Shown one piece after another: positions 2,869 through 9,137 of a DNA stretch of 48,283 nt. A model generated the notes under the pieces. The model was not told where the DNA came from. It saw only the letters and a program-made list of their open reading frames with translations, and searched no databases. The number at the start of each line of letters is the position of its first letter. Position 1 is the first letter of the stretch. Source of the stretch: an uncultured Elusimicrobiales bacterium (GTDB lineage: Bacteria > Elusimicrobiota > Elusimicrobia > Elusimicrobiales > Elusimicrobiaceae); contig CALUUY010000005.1 in assembly GCA_944324095.1 (NCBI GenBank), positions 1 to 48,283 on the forward strand, given 5' to 3'. A program made the translations under genes and the position numbers.

Positions 2869-2899
2869 TTGACTTGGAGCCAACTCCAGGCATTATAAT
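2869..2899 (+). promoter_or_regulatory. MerR-type promoter/operator 1 (19-bp spacer)
   Basis: Near-consensus TTGACT (2869-2874) and TATAAT (2894-2899) are separated by 19 bp rather than 17. The spacer carries the dyad TGGAG-N4-CTCCA (2875-2888). Over-long spacers with a centred dyad are the hallmark of MerR-activated promoters, where the regulator untwists DNA to align the boxes. It drives the merR-like gene itself, so autoregulation is expected. A second copy lies at 3886-3916. Confidence 0.82.
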
Positions 2900-2922: not shown

Positions 2923-3300
2923 ATGACCATATCCGAAGTGAGCGAAAAGTACGGCCTGCCGCCGGATACTTTACGCTATTATGAAAAAGTGGGTCTTATC
3001 CCGCCCGTTACCCGTAAAGAAAGCGGCGTGCGGGACTATAGTGAGCAAGATTGCGGCTGGGTTGAATTTATTAAATGTATGCGCGGCGCCGGCCTTTCTA
3101 TTGAAACGCTTATACGTTATGTAGCTCTTTACCGTAAAGGCAACCGCACTTTAAAACAGCGTAAACAACTGTTAATTGACGAGCGGGAAAAACTGCAAGA
3201 ACGTATTGAACAAATGCAGCAAGTGTTGAAGCGTTTAAACTACAAAATAGACCTGTATGAAGATCGCATAGTATCGTGTGAAAAAAAGTTGTTAAGTTAG
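2923..3300 (+). CDS. MerR-family regulator, AdhR/NmlR-like
   Basis: A 125-residue dimeric DNA-binding activator. Residues 1-70 form the winged helix, with the DTLRYYEKVGLIPP signature at about 15-28. Residues 80-120 form the antiparallel dimerisation coiled coil. There is no metal-binding cysteine cluster. C52 in FIKCMRGAGLSIE lies where AdhR of Bacillus subtilis has its aldehyde-sensing Cys52 (established for that family), so a response to reactive aldehydes or other electrophiles is the likely cue. C44 and a third cysteine near the C-terminus are extra. The gene is transcribed from operator 1 and is only 12 bp from the reductase at 3313, so the two form one operon. Strong GGAGG site. Confidence 0.88.
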   Translation: MTISEVSEKYGLPPDTLRYYEKVGLIPPVTRKESGVRDYSEQDCGWVEFIKCMRGAGLSIETLIRYVALYRKGNRTLKQRKQLLIDEREKLQERIEQMQQVLKRLNYKIDLYEDRIVSCEKKLLS

Positions 3301-3312
3301 AGGTAAATGTAT

Positions 3313-3852
3313 ATGGCAAAAAAAGTATTAGTTATTTCTGCCAGCCCCAGAAAGGGCGGCAATTCCGATTTATTGTGTGACCGTTTTATAGCCGGTGCGC
3401 AAGAAGCCGGGCACGAAGTGGAAAAAATTGCCCTGCGCGAGAAGAACATTCACTATTGTTTAGGGTGTGGTGTGTGCAACAATACCCACCTTTGTGTGCA
3501 AAAAGACGATATGAAAGCCGTTTTGGATAAACTGGTTGAGGCCGACGTAATTGTGCTGGCAACCCCGGTTTATTTTTATTCTATGGACGGCCAACTTAAA
3601 ACGTTTATAGACCGCACCGTCCCCAGATATACGGAAATCTCCCATAAAGATTTTTATTTTATTCTTACTGCGGCCGACACGCAACAGAAAAACCTGCACC
3701 GCACCGTGGAAGCCTTGCGCGGTTTTACCCAAGATTGTTTGGACGATGCCCGTGAAAAAGCCGTTATTTACGGGGTGGGCGCCTGGCAAGCGGGTGAAGT
3801 AAAAGATACTCCCGCTTGGCATCAAGCCTATGAAGCAGGCAAAAATTGTTAA
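3313..3852 (+). CDS. Flavodoxin-fold NAD(P)H-dependent FMN reductase / iron-sulfur flavoprotein-like
   Basis: A cytoplasmic flavoprotein of 179 residues that would move electrons from NAD(P)H or ferredoxin through FMN. The phosphate loop SASPRKGGNSD follows the first strand. The compact cysteine array C-x2-C-x2-C-x5-C (CLGCGVCNNTHLC, about residues 50-62) resembles the 4Fe-4S motif of archaeal and clostridial iron-sulfur flavoproteins. TPVYFYSMDGQLKTFIDR is the conserved FMN-side loop. ATG 3313 is preferred to ATG 3307 because AGAGG (3299-3303) is 9 nt from the former and only 3 nt from the latter. It is co-transcribed with the MerR regulator, which suggests a quinone or aldehyde stress role. 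The substrate is unknown. Confidence 0.82.
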   Translation: MAKKVLVISASPRKGGNSDLLCDRFIAGAQEAGHEVEKIALREKNIHYCLGCGVCNNTHLCVQKDDMKAVLDKLVEADVIVLATPVYFYSMDGQLKTFIDRTVPRYTEISHKDFYFILTAADTQQKNLHRTVEALRGFTQDCLDDAREKAVIYGVGAWQAGEVKDTPAWHQAYEAGKNC

Positions 3853-3885: not shown

Positions 3886-3916
3886 TTGACTTGGAGTCAA
3901 CTCTATGCCTTATACT
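3886..3916 (+). promoter_or_regulatory. MerR-type promoter/operator 2 (19-bp spacer)
   Basis: TTGACT (3886-3891), a 19-bp spacer and TATACT (3911-3916). The stretch CTTGACTTGGAG is identical to operator 1, followed by the matching half TCAACTC. The regulator encoded at 2923-3300 should therefore also control the CMD-cupin-DXS-like genes downstream. Confidence 0.82.
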
Positions 3917-3996: not shown

Positions 3997-4716
3997 GTGA
4001 AAACAAAAAAATTTTTATGGGCGTTGCTGCTGGGTATTGTGTGTGTAGTGGCGGCGCCTGCTAAAGAGGAAAAAATGACAACTGGTTTAACCCAAAAACA
4101 GCAAGCAGTTTCGGCCGTTGCGGCCTTAGCTGCTGTTGGAAATTTAGAAAAACTTCCCGCAGCCTATATTCAGGCATTGGAGGCTGGAGCCACCATTAAT
4201 GAACTAAAGGAAATTACCCTTCAGTTATACGCTTATACAGGGTTTCCGCGGTGTTTAAACGCGGCCGCCGTGTTGGAGAAGGTGGTAAACAGCCGGGTGG
4301 AAAAAGCCATAAAAGACCCCCAAGGCCCGGCCCCGCAAACCCTGGAACCCAATACAGATAAGTATGAATTGGGCAGAAAGAATTTAGAAGTGCTTACCGC
4401 TTCCGCCCAGCCGTCTCATCCTAAGGCCTTTATACAGGCAACGGATACGTTTTTAAAAGAGCATTTATTTGCCGATATTTTTGCCCGCGGCGTGGTGCCT
4501 TTTAAAGAGCGTGAGATGGCTACCGTTTCCGCCTTGGCTGCTTTGCAAAACGTAAACCCGCAGCTTCAAGCACATATGGCAATGGCAATGAATGTGGGCG
4601 TAACGGAGGAGGAAATGGAAGGTATTGTTTCGGTTATAAAAACCCAGTTGGGGCCTCAAGCCGCGCAAAATGCGCAGGATGTATTTAAAAGTGTATTAAA
4701 AGCGCGTAAAAAATAA
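3997..4716 (+). CDS. Exported carboxymuconolactone decarboxylase (CMD/AhpD-like) protein, two CMD repeats
   Basis: A 239-residue all-helical protein with two CMD domains (about 30-110 and 145-235). The second contains the ARGVVPFKEREMATVSALAA helix pair. The usual AhpD C-x-x-C is absent (FPRC in repeat 1), so peroxidase activity by that route is unlikely. A GTG at 3997 with AAAAGGAGG is the first good start and gives a signal peptide (FLWALLLGIVCVVAAPA). A second start, ATG 4075, sits after the signal peptide with its own GAGG 8 nt upstream and would give the cytoplasmic form. First gene behind MerR operator 2. CMD, cupin and flavodoxin genes often travel together in gut anaerobes (recollection, not searched). 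The reaction is unknown. Confidence 0.78.
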   Translation: MKTKKFLWALLLGIVCVVAAPAKEEKMTTGLTQKQQAVSAVAALAAVGNLEKLPAAYIQALEAGATINELKEITLQLYAYTGFPRCLNAAAVLEKVVNSRVEKAIKDPQGPAPQTLEPNTDKYELGRKNLEVLTASAQPSHPKAFIQATDTFLKEHLFADIFARGVVPFKEREMATVSALAALQNVNPQLQAHMAMAMNVGVTEEEMEGIVSVIKTQLGPQAAQNAQDVFKSVLKARKK

Positions 4717-4732
4717 AATGGCGGTGGAAAGT

Positions 4733-5233
4733 ATGCATTTATTCATTAAAAAAACGATGAGTCTGATCGTTTGTGTATTGGTTATAGGCGGCGGCCTTTT
4801 GCAGGCCAAAAACAAGGAGAAAAAAATGACTAAAAAATCACCCATAGACACTGTTTTTGCACAAGGGGACGTGAACCCATACGGTAAATTTTTTACCGGC
4901 ACCACGTATTTAAATATGTTAAACGCTAAAGATGATGTTTTTCAAGCGCCTATTGGTAACGTTACCTTTGAACCCGGTGCCCGCACCCATTGGCACAAAC
5001 ACGACGGAGGACAGATTCTTTTAGTGCTTAACGGCGAGGGCCGCTACCAGGAAAAGGGCCAAAAAATACGCGTCCTTAAAAAGGGGGATGTTGTTTTAAT
5101 TGCGCCCGATATTGAACATTGGCACGGAGCCGCACCGGACAGCTGGTTTGTACACATTTCATTAGAAACCAATGCCCATAAAAATGGTTCCACCACCTGG
5201 CTTAACCCGGTGACAGATGAAGAATATAAATAG
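4733..5233 (+). CDS. Exported cupin-domain protein
   Basis: A single small beta-barrel cupin of 166 residues. Motif 1 is GARTHWHKHDGGQILLVLNG (two histidines plus a third position for metal) and motif 2 ends in DIEHWHGAAPD, giving a complete metal site. ATG 4733 follows GGTGGA; the ATG at 4718 has no ribosome site. The N-terminus is a signal peptide or anchor (LIVCVLVIGGGLLQA). As in the preceding CMD gene, an internal AAGGAG plus ATG (4827) could start a cytoplasmic version (MTKKSPID). It lies 16 bp after CMD in the same operon. Such cupins are often paired with CMD proteins; substrate unknown. Confidence 0.82.
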   Translation: MHLFIKKTMSLIVCVLVIGGGLLQAKNKEKKMTKKSPIDTVFAQGDVNPYGKFFTGTTYLNMLNAKDDVFQAPIGNVTFEPGARTHWHKHDGGQILLVLNGEGRYQEKGQKIRVLKKGDVVLIAPDIEHWHGAAPDSWFVHISLETNAHKNGSTTWLNPVTDEEYK

Positions 5234-5251: not shown

Positions 5252-7012
5252 ATGTCTATTTTAGAAAAAGTAAACCAACCGCAGGATTTAAAGGCTTTAA
5301 CCGTAGAAGAGCTGAGAGTCCTTTCTCAGGAAATACGGGAGTTAACTATTCATAAAGTAAATGTTACGGGCGGACACTTGGCCCCTAATTTGGGGTTTGT
5401 GGAAGCTACGGTGGCTATGCATTACGTGTTTAATTCTCCGCAGGATAAAATGGTGTATGATGTTTCCCATCAAAGCTATACCCATAAAATTTTAACCGGG
5501 CGTAAAGAAAACTTTTTAAATCCGGCAAAATATCAAGCCATTTCCGGCTATACTAACCCGAAGGAAAGTGCACACGATTGTTTTTTTGTGGGGCACACTT
5601 CCACGGCGGCCAGTTTGGCGGTGGGGTTAGCTAAAGCACGGGATTTGCAAGGCCAAAAACACAATGTAATAGCCGTGGTGGGGGACGGCTCTTTAAGCGG
5701 GGGGGAAGCTTTTGAAGGCTTGGATAACGCCGCGGAATTAAACAGCAATATTATCATTGTGGTGAATGATAATGATATGTGTATTGCGCCTAACAGCGGC
5801 GGGTTATACCGCAATTTAGCCCTGTTGCGGCAAACCAAAGGCGCGGCCCCGTGCAATTTTTTTAAATCTTTAGGGTTGGATTATGTGTATCTGGATGAGG
5901 GGCACAATATGGACTTGTTGATAAAAGTATTTCAACAAGTAAAAGATTCCCCCCGCCCGGTGGTGGTGCACATCCGCACGATTAAAGGAAAAGGCTGCCC
6001 GGTGGCCCAGCAAGACCCGGAGAGTTTCCATTTTATTGCGCCCGGTCAGGTAACCAACAAGGCTCCGCAGCCGGAAGCGGAAAGTTATGCTTCGTTGACG
6101 GTAGATTATTTGCTGGAAAAACGCCGGCAGGACCCGCGTGTGATTACTATTACTCCGGCTACGCCGGGGGCGTACGGCCTTACCCCGCAGGTACGTGCAC
6201 AACTGGGGGAAGGTTTTAGTGATGTGGGGATAGCCGAAGAGCACGCTGTGGCTTATGCCTCAGCTTTAGCGGCGGGCGGTGCCAAACCGGTGCTTCAGAT
6301 ATTAAGCTCTTTTGTTCAGCGTACGTATGACCAGTTATCCCAAGATTGGGCCTTAAACAATAACCCGGCTGTGTTGCTGGTGCATTGGGGCGGAATTTCC
6401 GGCGGGGATGCTACCCATTTGGGGTGTTTTGATATACCTCTTATTAGCAATATTCCCAATATCGTTTATTTGGCGCCAACGGGTAAAAAAGAGTATTTGG
6501 CTATGCTGGATTGGGCGTTAAAACAAAATACGCATCCGGTGGCTATACGCGTTCCGTTTGGGCCGGTGGCGGATAATGGCGCACAACCCCAGGCAGATTA
6601 TACCCCGTTAAATAAATTTCAGGTAATTAGCCGGGGCAGTGAGGTGGCTGTTTTGGGGTTAGGTAACTTTTTGCGTTTAGGGCAGGAGGTTTGCGCCCAA
6701 CTGCAAAAAGAAGCCGGCATAAAAGCCACGCTTATTAATCCGCGTTATGCATCCGGTTTAGATGAGCAATTGCTGGAAGAGTTAAAAGACGAACACCGGC
6801 TGGTGCTTACGCTTGAAGACGGATGTGTAAACGGCGGTTTTGGGGAAAAAGTAGCTTCGTTTTACGGTGCAAGTTCTATGCGGGTACTCAATTTTGGCGC
6901 CCGGAAAGAATTTACCGACCGGGTTGCTTTAGACAAATTGTACGAGCGTTTCCACCTAACCAAAGAGCTTATTTGCCAAGATGCATTGGCCTGTTTAAAA
7001 GCTATCCGCTAA
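5252..7012 (+). CDS. 1-deoxy-D-xylulose-5-phosphate synthase-like thiamine-diphosphate enzyme (short paralog)
   Basis: A transketolase-type enzyme of 586 residues, shorter than canonical DXS (about 620). Seen in order: YDVSHQSYTHKILTGR (phosphate/TPP histidine), GHTSTAASLAVGLA, VVGDGSLSGGEAFEGL plus NDNDMCIAPN (Mg-TPP motif), GIAEEHAVAYASALA (activating glutamate), and the C-terminal transketolase domain. The substrate loop usually written GADGPTH is GGDATHLG here, so the specificity may differ from DXS. GGAGAG ribosome site. It sits 18 bp behind the cupin under MerR operator 2, not among isoprenoid genes. A housekeeping DXS elsewhere is expected but not visible. It could make deoxyxylulose phosphate or carboligate another aldehyde with pyruvate. 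Confidence 0.8.
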   Translation: MSILEKVNQPQDLKALTVEELRVLSQEIRELTIHKVNVTGGHLAPNLGFVEATVAMHYVFNSPQDKMVYDVSHQSYTHKILTGRKENFLNPAKYQAISGYTNPKESAHDCFFVGHTSTAASLAVGLAKARDLQGQKHNVIAVVGDGSLSGGEAFEGLDNAAELNSNIIIVVNDNDMCIAPNSGGLYRNLALLRQTKGAAPCNFFKSLGLDYVYLDEGHNMDLLIKVFQQVKDSPRPVVVHIRTIKGKGCPVAQQDPESFHFIAPGQVTNKAPQPEAESYASLTVDYLLEKRRQDPRVITITPATPGAYGLTPQVRAQLGEGFSDVGIAEEHAVAYASALAAGGAKPVLQILSSFVQRTYDQLSQDWALNNNPAVLLVHWGGISGGDATHLGCFDIPLISNIPNIVYLAPTGKKEYLAMLDWALKQNTHPVAIRVPFGPVADNGAQPQADYTPLNKFQVISRGSEVAVLGLGNFLRLGQEVCAQLQKEAGIKATLINPRYASGLDEQLLEELKDEHRLVLTLEDGCVNGGFGEKVASFYGASSMRVLNFGARKEFTDRVALDKLYERFHLTKELICQDALACLKAIR

Positions 7013-7062: not shown

Positions 7063-7145
7063 GAAACACATAAGACGTGCAGCGGATTAGTGGCGTAGCG
7101 TAAGGCTTTGGCGCAGTAAACAAGGCTGTTATAAGGAGAATGAAA

Positions 7146-7766
7146 ATGAAGAAAAATATTTATGCTATGTTATGTGGAGGCATCATGCTGTTAGGGCCGG
7201 TTGCCTGCGCTAAGGCTCCTTCAGAGCCGCAAACGGCTGAAGTAGCAGGTGCCGTTGCCGGCAATGCAGAAGAAAGCACCCCGGCCAAAAACCAAAAAAT
7301 TTTAGTTGCCTATTATTCTTATTCCGGCAATACACGGGCGGTGGCTCAGCAAATTGCCAAACATATAGGGGCGGATTTGTTTGAAATCAACACGGTAGAA
7401 AAATATCCCTCCGCATATGGGGAATTAACCAACCAGGCTAAACAGGAAATTAATGCCGGGTTTAAGCCGGCGCTTTCGGCTCAGGTAGAAAATATGGCAC
7501 AATACGATGTAGTGTTTATCGGATCCCCAAATTGGTGGGGCACCATTGCACCGGCGGTTTCTTCTTTTATTGCTCAATATAATTGGGAAGGGAAAAAAGT
7601 GGCCGGATTTTTTACCCACGGCGGGGGCGGTATCCAAAACTGTGGGCGCGATTTAAAACAACAGCTGCCTATGGCGGAAGTACTTCCAGCGGTAGCTTTT
7701 CCCGGCCGGTCTTCCGGCGCGCCGGAAAAGGAATTACAGGCTTGGCTTAAAGGCCTAAAATTATAG
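7146..7766 (+). CDS. Exported (probable lipoprotein) flavodoxin
   Basis: A 206-residue protein: signal peptide (about 1-21), a spacer rich in Ala, Glu and Pro, then a complete flavodoxin fold. The FMN phosphate loop is SYSGNTRAVAQQIA and the second FMN loop is GSPNWWGTIAPAVSSF, including a tryptophan that stacks on flavin. The sequence PVAC before the spacer can act as a lipobox, although Pro at -3 is unusual, so lipid anchoring is probable rather than certain. ATG 7146 (7 nt from AAGGAG) is chosen over ATG 7140 (1 nt). Flavodoxins are normally cytoplasmic, so an export signal is noteworthy. It is followed by the membrane cytochrome-like gene and a second anchored flavodoxin. Confidence 0.82.
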   Translation: MKKNIYAMLCGGIMLLGPVACAKAPSEPQTAEVAGAVAGNAEESTPAKNQKILVAYYSYSGNTRAVAQQIAKHIGADLFEINTVEKYPSAYGELTNQAKQEINAGFKPALSAQVENMAQYDVVFIGSPNWWGTIAPAVSSFIAQYNWEGKKVAGFFTHGGGGIQNCGRDLKQQLPMAEVLPAVAFPGRSSGAPEKELQAWLKGLKL

Positions 7767-7795
7767 TAATTTAAAACGAGAAAAAGGGGGCGTTT

Positions 7796-8470
7796 ATGCA
7801 GAGTAAAATAATTTTTAAAATGACGATAGACGCGCTTATGAGCGCCCTCTTTTTAATAGTGCTTGCTCCGCGTTCAACGGGTATCTTAGGGCACGAAGTG
7901 GTGGGCGTTTTATTGGGTATGCTGTTTGTTGTTCACAACGTGCTTAATAAAGAGTGGTATAAAAATTTATTTCACGGGCCGTATAATTTACATCGTGGGG
8001 TTTGGGTAGGGGTAAACATTGCTTTGTTAGCGGTAATGCTGGCTCTTATGGTAAGCGGAGTGTTAATCTCGCGTGAATTGTTTGACTTTCTGCCCATTGC
8101 CGGCGGATGGACGGCACGCCGGGTGCACACAGCAGCGGCGTATTGGGGTTTTGTTGTAACAGGAGTACATTTAGGGTTACACGGTGGGTTGTTGAAAGGA
8201 GTTTGGTGTAATCAAGTGGGCAAGTGGGGCGATTATGCAGTTAAAGTAATGTTTTGGGCAGCGGCTGTGTATGGGGTAAAAGCGTTTGTGCATTGGCATA
8301 TTGGTGCTAAATTAATGATGAGGCGCGCTTTCCAAAATTGGGAAGGTATAACTTGGGTATATTTTTTAGTCTCCCATATAGCTATATGGTGTTTGTGCGC
8401 TTGTGTGGCTTATTATACAATGCTTCTTTTGCAACGCCTCACCCTGAGAAACAAAAATAAGGAGGATTAA
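7796..8470 (+). CDS. DUF4405-type membrane cytochrome b-like protein
   Basis: 224 residues with about five or six membrane helices. Histidines placed within or at the ends of helices could ligate two b hemes: H33 and H47 (LGHEVVG...VVHNVLNKEW), H111, H125 and H129 (RRVHTAAAYWGF...GVHLGLH), plus H166, H168 and H194. The wording TGILGHEVVG, LNKEWYKNLF and FLPIAGG matches the DUF4405 family (recognised by eye), described as cytochrome-like and associated with extracytosolic flavoprotein redox systems. GGGGG ribosome site. It is sandwiched between two flavodoxin genes (30 bp and 1 bp gaps), pointing to electron transfer between the quinone pool or cytosol and the flavodoxins. Heme binding is inferred. 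Confidence 0.72.
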   Translation: MQSKIIFKMTIDALMSALFLIVLAPRSTGILGHEVVGVLLGMLFVVHNVLNKEWYKNLFHGPYNLHRGVWVGVNIALLAVMLALMVSGVLISRELFDFLPIAGGWTARRVHTAAAYWGFVVTGVHLGLHGGLLKGVWCNQVGKWGDYAVKVMFWAAAVYGVKAFVHWHIGAKLMMRRAFQNWEGITWVYFLVSHIAIWCLCACVAYYTMLLLQRLTLRNKNKED

Positions 8471-8471
8471 A

Positions 8472-9137
8472 ATGTTAAAAATTATTTTAATAGTAGTGGT
8501 AGTGGGGGGAATAATCGCAGGTGCAAGCGGGTATTTTCATCTTAGACGGGTAGCCCAGCGTAATAAGGCAGAAATGGCTCCTTATTTCGGGGCGGAAATT
8601 CCGTACAAGGCTTCTTTAGGAAAATGCCTGGTTATTTATTATTCCAAAACGGGCCATACACAGCAAATTGCCCAGCGTGTAGCGCATTATACGGGCGCAG
8701 ACGTGTACGAAATACAAACCCAAAAGCCGTTTAGTAAAGTGCCTTGGCTGGCGCTTATTTTAAAAAGACAGCTCTCCACCGGGCGTTACCCAGCCTTAAA
8801 AGAGCTTCCTGCCGATGTAAGCGGATATGATACCGTATTTGTGGGCGCTCCTGTATGGTGGTACACCGCCGCTACGCCTATGTTGGCTTTTTTGAAACAG
8901 GCGGATTTTAAAGGGAAAAAGGTGGTGTTTTTCTCTACACAAGGGAGCAATTACGGTACTTTTTTTAAAGACGTGCGTGCCCAAGCCAAAAATGCCGTTT
9001 TGTTGCCGGGTGCGGCGTTTAATAATTTAGATGCTTCTTATAATGCCGCCGTAGAAAATAAAATTATTACGTGGTTAAATAAATTAAATACGCCCACTGA
9101 TAAAGAAGTACTGGTGGGGGAGCAGTTTCACCACTAA
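8472..9137 (+). CDS. Membrane-anchored flavodoxin
   Basis: 221 residues: one N-terminal helix (IILIVVVVGGIIAGASGYF), a basic stretch (HLRRVAQRNK) and a flavodoxin domain with the FMN loop YSKTGHTQQIAQRV and second loop GAPVWWYTAATPMLAFL. The positive charges directly after the helix predict, by the positive-inside rule, that the flavodoxin domain faces the cytoplasm, the opposite side to the lipoprotein-like flavodoxin at 7146. It starts 1 nt after the cytochrome-like gene with a good AAGGAGG, so the two are translationally coupled. The pair plus the exported flavodoxin could form a trans-membrane FMN-heme-FMN relay (inference). It ends the operon. Confidence 0.82.
   Translation: MLKIILIVVVVGGIIAGASGYFHLRRVAQRNKAEMAPYFGAEIPYKASLGKCLVIYYSKTGHTQQIAQRVAHYTGADVYEIQTQKPFSKVPWLALILKRQLSTGRYPALKELPADVSGYDTVFVGAPVWWYTAATPMLAFLKQADFKGKKVVFFSTQGSNYGTFFKDVRAQAKNAVLLPGAAFNNLDASYNAAVENKIITWLNKLNTPTDKEVLVGEQFHH

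Follow-up and report, generated by a model that had tools for sequence, protein, structure and literature searches.

Gene content of the locus

The window, a stretch of 48,283 nucleotides from contig CALUUY010000005.1 of a 1.58-Mb Elusimicrobiaceae MAG that represents a gut bacterium of the phylum Elusimicrobiota, carries three consecutive genes whose open reading frames were all found intact and whose products all score above the cut-offs of their Pfam families, in agreement with the earlier note on this DNA. The first, designated Fld1 (7146..7766, + strand), encodes an exported flavodoxin lipoprotein of the Flavodoxin_4 family; the second (7796..8470, + strand) a putative six-helix membrane cytochrome of the DUF4405 family, assigned from its Pfam match, the invariant histidines His33/47/111/125 and its structural model; and the third, Fld2 (8472..9137, + strand), a protein in which an N-terminal membrane helix is followed by a flavodoxin domain that the charge pattern predicts to be cytoplasm-facing. 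A single nucleotide separates DUF4405 from Fld2. The Fld1 reading frame is open already from 7140, and the start at 7146 was preferred to it because a GGAG at 7135-7138 lies 7 nt upstream of 7146 and because relatives begin M-K/R-K-N at the matching position.

The trio forms the tail of a run of genes in the same direction, all on the + strand, consisting of an NmlR/AdhR-like MerR regulator with Cys52 (2923..3300; Pfam MerR_1, 7e-19), a cytosolic iron-sulfur flavoprotein of the Isf type (3307..3852; Pfam FMN_red, 1e-25), an exported two-domain CMD-family protein (3997..4716, GTG start; Pfam CMD, 5e-21), an exported cupin (4718..5233; Pfam Cupin_2, 2e-11) and a DXS-like TPP enzyme (5252..7012; NCBIfam PRK12315, 832 bits). 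A Bcr/CflA-type efflux MFS gene (1422-2789), whose product may carry a flavin or the stressor, is conserved directly 5' of nmlR in most relatives. Export signals were present on the CMD, cupin and Fld1 products, so that the claim of exported CMD and cupin proteins as neighbours was sustained after correction of the CMD start; TTG 3886 was rejected as the start of this gene, since that position belongs to a promoter/operator and CMD begins at GTG 3997. Against the NCBIfam mandelonitrile lyase model the cupin reached 131 bits, under the cut-off of 140. The DXS-like gene is an optional member of the cassette, found in only part of the relatives; two MAGs of gut Alphaproteobacteria/Rickettsiales (L059 and L117) also have a gene of this PRK12315 type next to related ones.

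NmlR-type operators and the probable regulator

Two promoter/operators of the MerR type were located on the + strand, one belonging to nmlR (2869..2899; TTGACT-19 bp-TATAAT, with a GGAG-N4-CTCC palindrome in the spacer) and a second, NmlR-type one before CMD (3886..3916; TTGACT-19 bp-TATACT). A whole-genome search for this operator, allowing up to two mismatches, returned four sites in the window's own genome; none departs from the pattern at more than one position, and the spacer is 19 bp in each. With the pattern reversed as a control, there was a single match. Of the two sites outside the window (G000:C23:16785-16804, locus L151, and G000:C36:12218-12237, locus L152), one is followed by a gene for an exported alpha/beta hydrolase of the DLH type, the other by a gene for a DUF362 lipoprotein. 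Together the four operators define a small, mostly exported regulon comprising the operon from CMD to Fld2, the alpha/beta hydrolase and the DUF362 lipoprotein. Among relatives the operators before nmlR and before CMD are kept, and in two sister-genus loci (L031 and L042) one lies directly before Fld1.

The regulator scored 153.5 bits against the NCBIfam NmlR model (NF041849), under the equivalog cut-off of 175, and was therefore named NmlR-like. The conserved cysteine of the group, Cys52, is present within the motif FIKCMR, as read from the sequence; Cys52/54 is described as a defining feature of NmlR/AdhR regulators, and AdhR of B. subtilis likewise controls a CMD gene, YraC (PMC4776306).

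The exported flavodoxin and its cofactor

Both flavodoxins matched Pfam Flavodoxin_4 (PF12682), with E values of 5e-30 and 1e-24 (104 and 87 bits; cut-off 24). The earlier description of Fld1 as a flavodoxin with a signal peptide was borne out, as the signal sequence ends in an invariant lipobox Cys in all 19 Fld1 proteins (C23 if counted from 7140), with some 20-30 residues of linker behind it. Export of Fld1 in folded form by the twin-arginine route was rejected, the RR motif being absent from the signals. The FMN loop SxSGNT and the Trp loop are kept, the former reading YSYSGNT with no insertion, and the closest solved structures are PDB 3klb (E 1e-33) and its relatives. The flavinylation motif D-x-x-[ST]-G-[AS]-[ST] was found in none of the 19 Fld1 proteins, and no ApbE was detected in the 66 genomes of the genus, in a search whose positive controls matched in 7. 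Covalent flavinylation of Fld1 was rejected on these two grounds, and the FMN should therefore be held non-covalently.

DUF4405 and the question of heme

The product of the middle gene scored 41.6 bits against Pfam PF14358 (gathering cut-off 26.7; E 2e-10). In an alignment of 21 sequences, which takes in a distant group at 24-31% identity, His33, His47, His111 and His125 are invariant in all 20 intact relatives, and all four are kept in six of seven plasmid homologues. The two residues of each histidine pair stand 14 residues apart, with one helix per pair, and the predicted structure (pLDDT 87) has six long membrane helices. This four-histidine spacing fits two stacked b hemes; assuming that the N-terminus is inside, His33/His111 would lie near the outer face of the membrane and His47/His125 near the inner face, the customary layout for such a pair of hemes. 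A Foldseek search with the model gave no significant match, and VIA returned Z scores of 7-8 for TRP channels and b-type cytochromes alike. Some copies of the gene are damaged: in L021/L042 (8501-9040) the second histidine pair is gone through an internal deletion, and in G077:C7 and G259:C32 only C-terminal remnants adjoin an intact Fld1; all of these are probably decaying copies.

Ferrochelatase and cytochrome bd were absent from all 66 genus genomes searched and ALAD from all 41, with control genomes positive for each. As the lineage lacks ferrochelatase and ALAD, the known route to heme is closed to it, and any heme in DUF4405 would have to be scavenged. A four-histidine protein of cytochrome type is nonetheless retained in this lineage. 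The same absences lend some weight to a reading in which DUF4405 is heme-free here and serves as an apo membrane anchor or metal binder; this we consider unlikely, as a heme-free protein would not account well for four histidines kept in every intact relative, and gut anaerobes commonly scavenge heme. The earlier assignment as a b-type cytochrome stands as far as the four invariant histidines and the heme b of a related DUF4405 protein (PMC11334425) are concerned, the heme itself being uncertain in this genus.

Predicted topology of Fld2

Fld2 begins directly with a hydrophobic helix, which is followed by a cluster of Lys and Arg residues. Lys and Arg after the helix outnumber those before it in 15 of 15 DUF4405-linked copies and in 85 of 96 proteins of a wider set; in the sister genus, for example, the N-terminus reads MYSEFSAW and VKKKK follows the helix. 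The AlphaFold model (pLDDT 86) shows a helix at residues 2-38 and a flavodoxin domain. Apparent in-frame stops in some Fld2 and DUF4405 matches were put down to the profile running on past the ordinary stop codon, and the Fld2 reading frames that were re-read are open. The positive-inside bias agrees with the cytoplasmic placement of the Fld2 flavin domain that had been deduced from charge, and, taken with the lipobox Cys of Fld1, predicts that the two flavodoxins face opposite sides of the membrane, as had also been claimed. The topology remains a positive-inside prediction, although one resting on independent, divergent sequences.

Linkage of the three genes and the place of Fld2

Both in the genus and in its sister genus the run MFS, MerR, FMN_red, CMD, cupin, (DXS), Fld1, DUF4405 and Fld2 is found again with minor variations. 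A full DUF4405 was found in 28 of 66 genus genomes, and in all 28 Fld1 adjoins it with a gap of 50 bp or less (Fisher p 1e-13 for the association in the genus); Fld1 without a full DUF4405 occurred in only five of the 66, two of which hold a DUF4405 remnant. Fld2 follows DUF4405 at 17 of the 28 genus loci, 13 of them read directly, including the window, and four inferred from coordinates. Conservation of the order Fld1-DUF4405-Fld2 across these 13 read and four inferred cases shows that it is no product of chance, and the counts of 28/28 for Fld1 and 17/28 for Fld2 describe the trio as a Fld1-DUF4405 pair with an optional Fld2. Gene linkage gives the Fld1-DUF4405 step good support and the Fld2 step no more than moderate support.

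A profile scan of 84,980 species genomes gave 226 Fld2 relatives, of which the best 80 were analysed; these came from Elusimicrobiota, gut Alphaproteobacteria and a few other groups. Among these best 80 of 226, no Fld2 outside the clade adjoins DUF4405, and a DUF4405 above cut-off was found nowhere in 50 of 50 Fld2-bearing genomes sampled from them outside the clade. The constant partners of Fld2 are instead the NmlR-like regulator and Isf, with NmlR-Fld2-FMN_red the usual order at Elusimicrobiaceae loci that lack DUF4405. In UBA1436, one member of the window's genus, Fld1 and Fld2 are adjacent and DUF4405 is missing between them. The three-gene set proposed earlier therefore recurs within the genus but has no counterpart in the sampled genomes outside, and the idea of one obligate unit found no support, given that Fld2 mostly occurs without DUF4405.

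The Isf protein of the window carries the motif CX2CX2CX5C, and CX2CX2CX4-7C was found in 29 of 29 homologues. Isf proteins accept electrons from ferredoxin, and the position of Isf beside Fld2 in many loci suggests a transfer of electrons from Isf to Fld2. A compact cysteine motif of this kind defines the iron-sulfur flavoproteins (PMC3164229).

These distributions could also mean that Fld1 and DUF4405 alone make up the redox pair, with DUF4405 drawing on a membrane pool or another cytosolic donor, and that Fld2 is a membrane-bound reductase working with Isf in the cytoplasm and merely sharing the regulon. The zero count outside the clade, the 11 of 28 genus DUF4405 loci without Fld2, the non-significant association of Fld2 with DUF4405 across the genus (13/13/6/14; Fisher p = 0.23) and the fact that the NmlR-Fld2-Isf order is the norm in the rest of the family are all what such a division would produce. 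It explains less well why Fld2, where both are present, comes directly after DUF4405, and does so in DUF4405-linked Fld2 proteins that fall into two well separated clades; the two were probably joined more than once, which gives mild support to a working link. We regard a separate role for Fld2 as a serious but doubtful alternative.

Apparent exchange of the exported partner on plasmids

Plasmids of Sinorhizobium, Rhizobium, Agrobacterium, Ensifer and Peribacillus carry a DUF4405 homologue directly after a gene for an exported P460-type cytochrome with a signal sequence and a CxxCH motif. This pair is mostly preceded by CMD and cupin genes or by alpha/beta hydrolase genes (L141-L147); at the Priestia plasmid locus (L144) no annotated P460 was seen before DUF4405. 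The plasmid cupins and CMDs share 33-43% and about 35-43% identity, respectively, with their counterparts in the window; for the operator-linked hydrolase of this genome and the plasmid hydrolases the values are 43% and 35-37%. Since P460 stands in the place of Fld1 while CMD, cupin and hydrolase are kept, the exported partner of DUF4405 has apparently been exchanged. No paper linking P460 with DUF4405 was found in a literature search. A plasmid of Ruminococcus albus (L140, 4735-5759) carries a flavodoxin fragment before a DUF4405 in which the fourth histidine is Tyr.

The exchange bears on the direction of flow. Exported cytochrome P460 relatives include oxidases, and their occurrence in the position of Fld1 would suit an inward path, in which electrons that Fld1 gains from the oxidation of an envelope substrate are carried inside by DUF4405 and Fld2. 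The semiquinone/hydroquinone couples of flavodoxins, however, are low-potential donors, and the system sits in the stress regulon of an anaerobe together with a ferredoxin-type Isf, so that inward flow appears quite improbable.

A proposed electron relay

The genes and their order, the operators, the export signals, the conserved His and Cys residues and the adjacency statistics are all read from sequence, and the reading we prefer combines them in an NmlR-controlled envelope redox module with outward flow, from ferredoxin or NAD(P)H through Isf, Fld2 and DUF4405 to Fld1, to which we assign a probability of roughly one half. In this module an NmlR-like regulator of the aldehyde/thiol-stress type would switch on Isf, Fld2, DUF4405, Fld1 and the exported CMD and cupin. 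Reduced ferredoxin or NAD(P)H would then most likely supply Isf, and Isf would reduce Fld2 at the inner face of the membrane. From Fld2 electrons would pass to two b hemes of DUF4405, the inner one held by His47/His125 and the outer one by His33/His111, and from the outer heme to the non-covalent FMN of the lipoprotein Fld1. Fld1 would deliver them to an envelope reaction in which, probably, CMD, cupin and the exported hydrolase help to repair or remove a reactive small molecule. The core would be Fld1 and DUF4405; Fld2 would be an optional input, working in the absence of DUF4405 too. Heme loading, topology, the direction of electron flow, the partners and the substrate are the parts of this scheme that we infer. 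Several observations were counted against it: heme would have to be imported, as the genus lacks ferrochelatase, ALAD and cytochrome bd; the presence of Fld2 does not track that of DUF4405; UBA1436 has Fld1 next to Fld2 and lacks the intervening DUF4405; and the fold matches of DUF4405 were no better than middling ones to helical bundles.

A more specific form of the preferred reading is put forward tentatively, at a little short of even odds: a complete, ApbE-free FMN-(2 heme b)-FMN wire spanning the inner membrane, with a non-covalent flavodoxin at either face, scavenged heme and an NmlR-type electrophile switch. It would be one version of a broader module whose exported DUF4405 partner is exchangeable, being a flavodoxin in anaerobes and P460 in aerobes. 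If this is true, the stress response of anaerobic gut bacteria could push electrons into the envelope without covalent flavins, which would run counter to the view that, outside the cytosol, a flavodoxin keeps its FMN only if ApbE tethers it. The exchange of P460 for flavodoxin beside shared CMD, cupin and hydrolase genes gives DUF4405 its first functional setting beyond apbE and ferrosome clusters, and does the same for the exported CMD and cupin proteins of many genomes.

Comparison with known systems

A literature search on flavodoxins with CMD, cupin or MerR found nothing. The statement of the earlier note that no such system had been described nevertheless did not hold, as an Oscillospiraceae DUF4405 protein with six helices and four central histidines has been reported to show a heme b spectrum in vitro, and DUF4405 there adjoins a flavinylated Flavodoxin_4, with trans-membrane electron transfer to the extracytosolic flavin proposed (Huang et al. 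2024, mSystems, PMC11334425). An earlier archaeal study has placed the DUF4405 family near cytochrome b561. The present locus resembles the system of Huang et al. in having an exported Flavodoxin_4 protein beside a six-helix, four-histidine DUF4405, but differs from it in the lack of ApbE across 66 genomes and of a flavinylation motif or inserted loop, in the additional anchored flavodoxin predicted to face the cytosol, and in its NmlR control in place of an apbE cluster.

With the NmlR/AdhR regulons of Neisseria, Haemophilus and B. subtilis (PMC4776306) it shares a MerR regulator with Cys52, the 19-bp spacer and a CMD gene, whereas no adhC or estD is adjacent here and the targets are mostly exported or membrane redox proteins. 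The rhizobial and Bacillus-type plasmid clusters have homologous hydrolase, CMD, cupin and DUF4405 genes in the same order, but encode an exported c-type cytochrome P460 in place of the flavodoxin, contain no Fld2, and have annotated neighbouring regulators that are mostly of the LysR type. The Isf protein conforms to its family in its FMN_red domain and compact CX2CX2CX5C motif and differs in adjoining NmlR and, often, Fld2. Fld1 and DUF4405 are therefore a known kind of pair, and it is the present arrangement and its control that are the new details.
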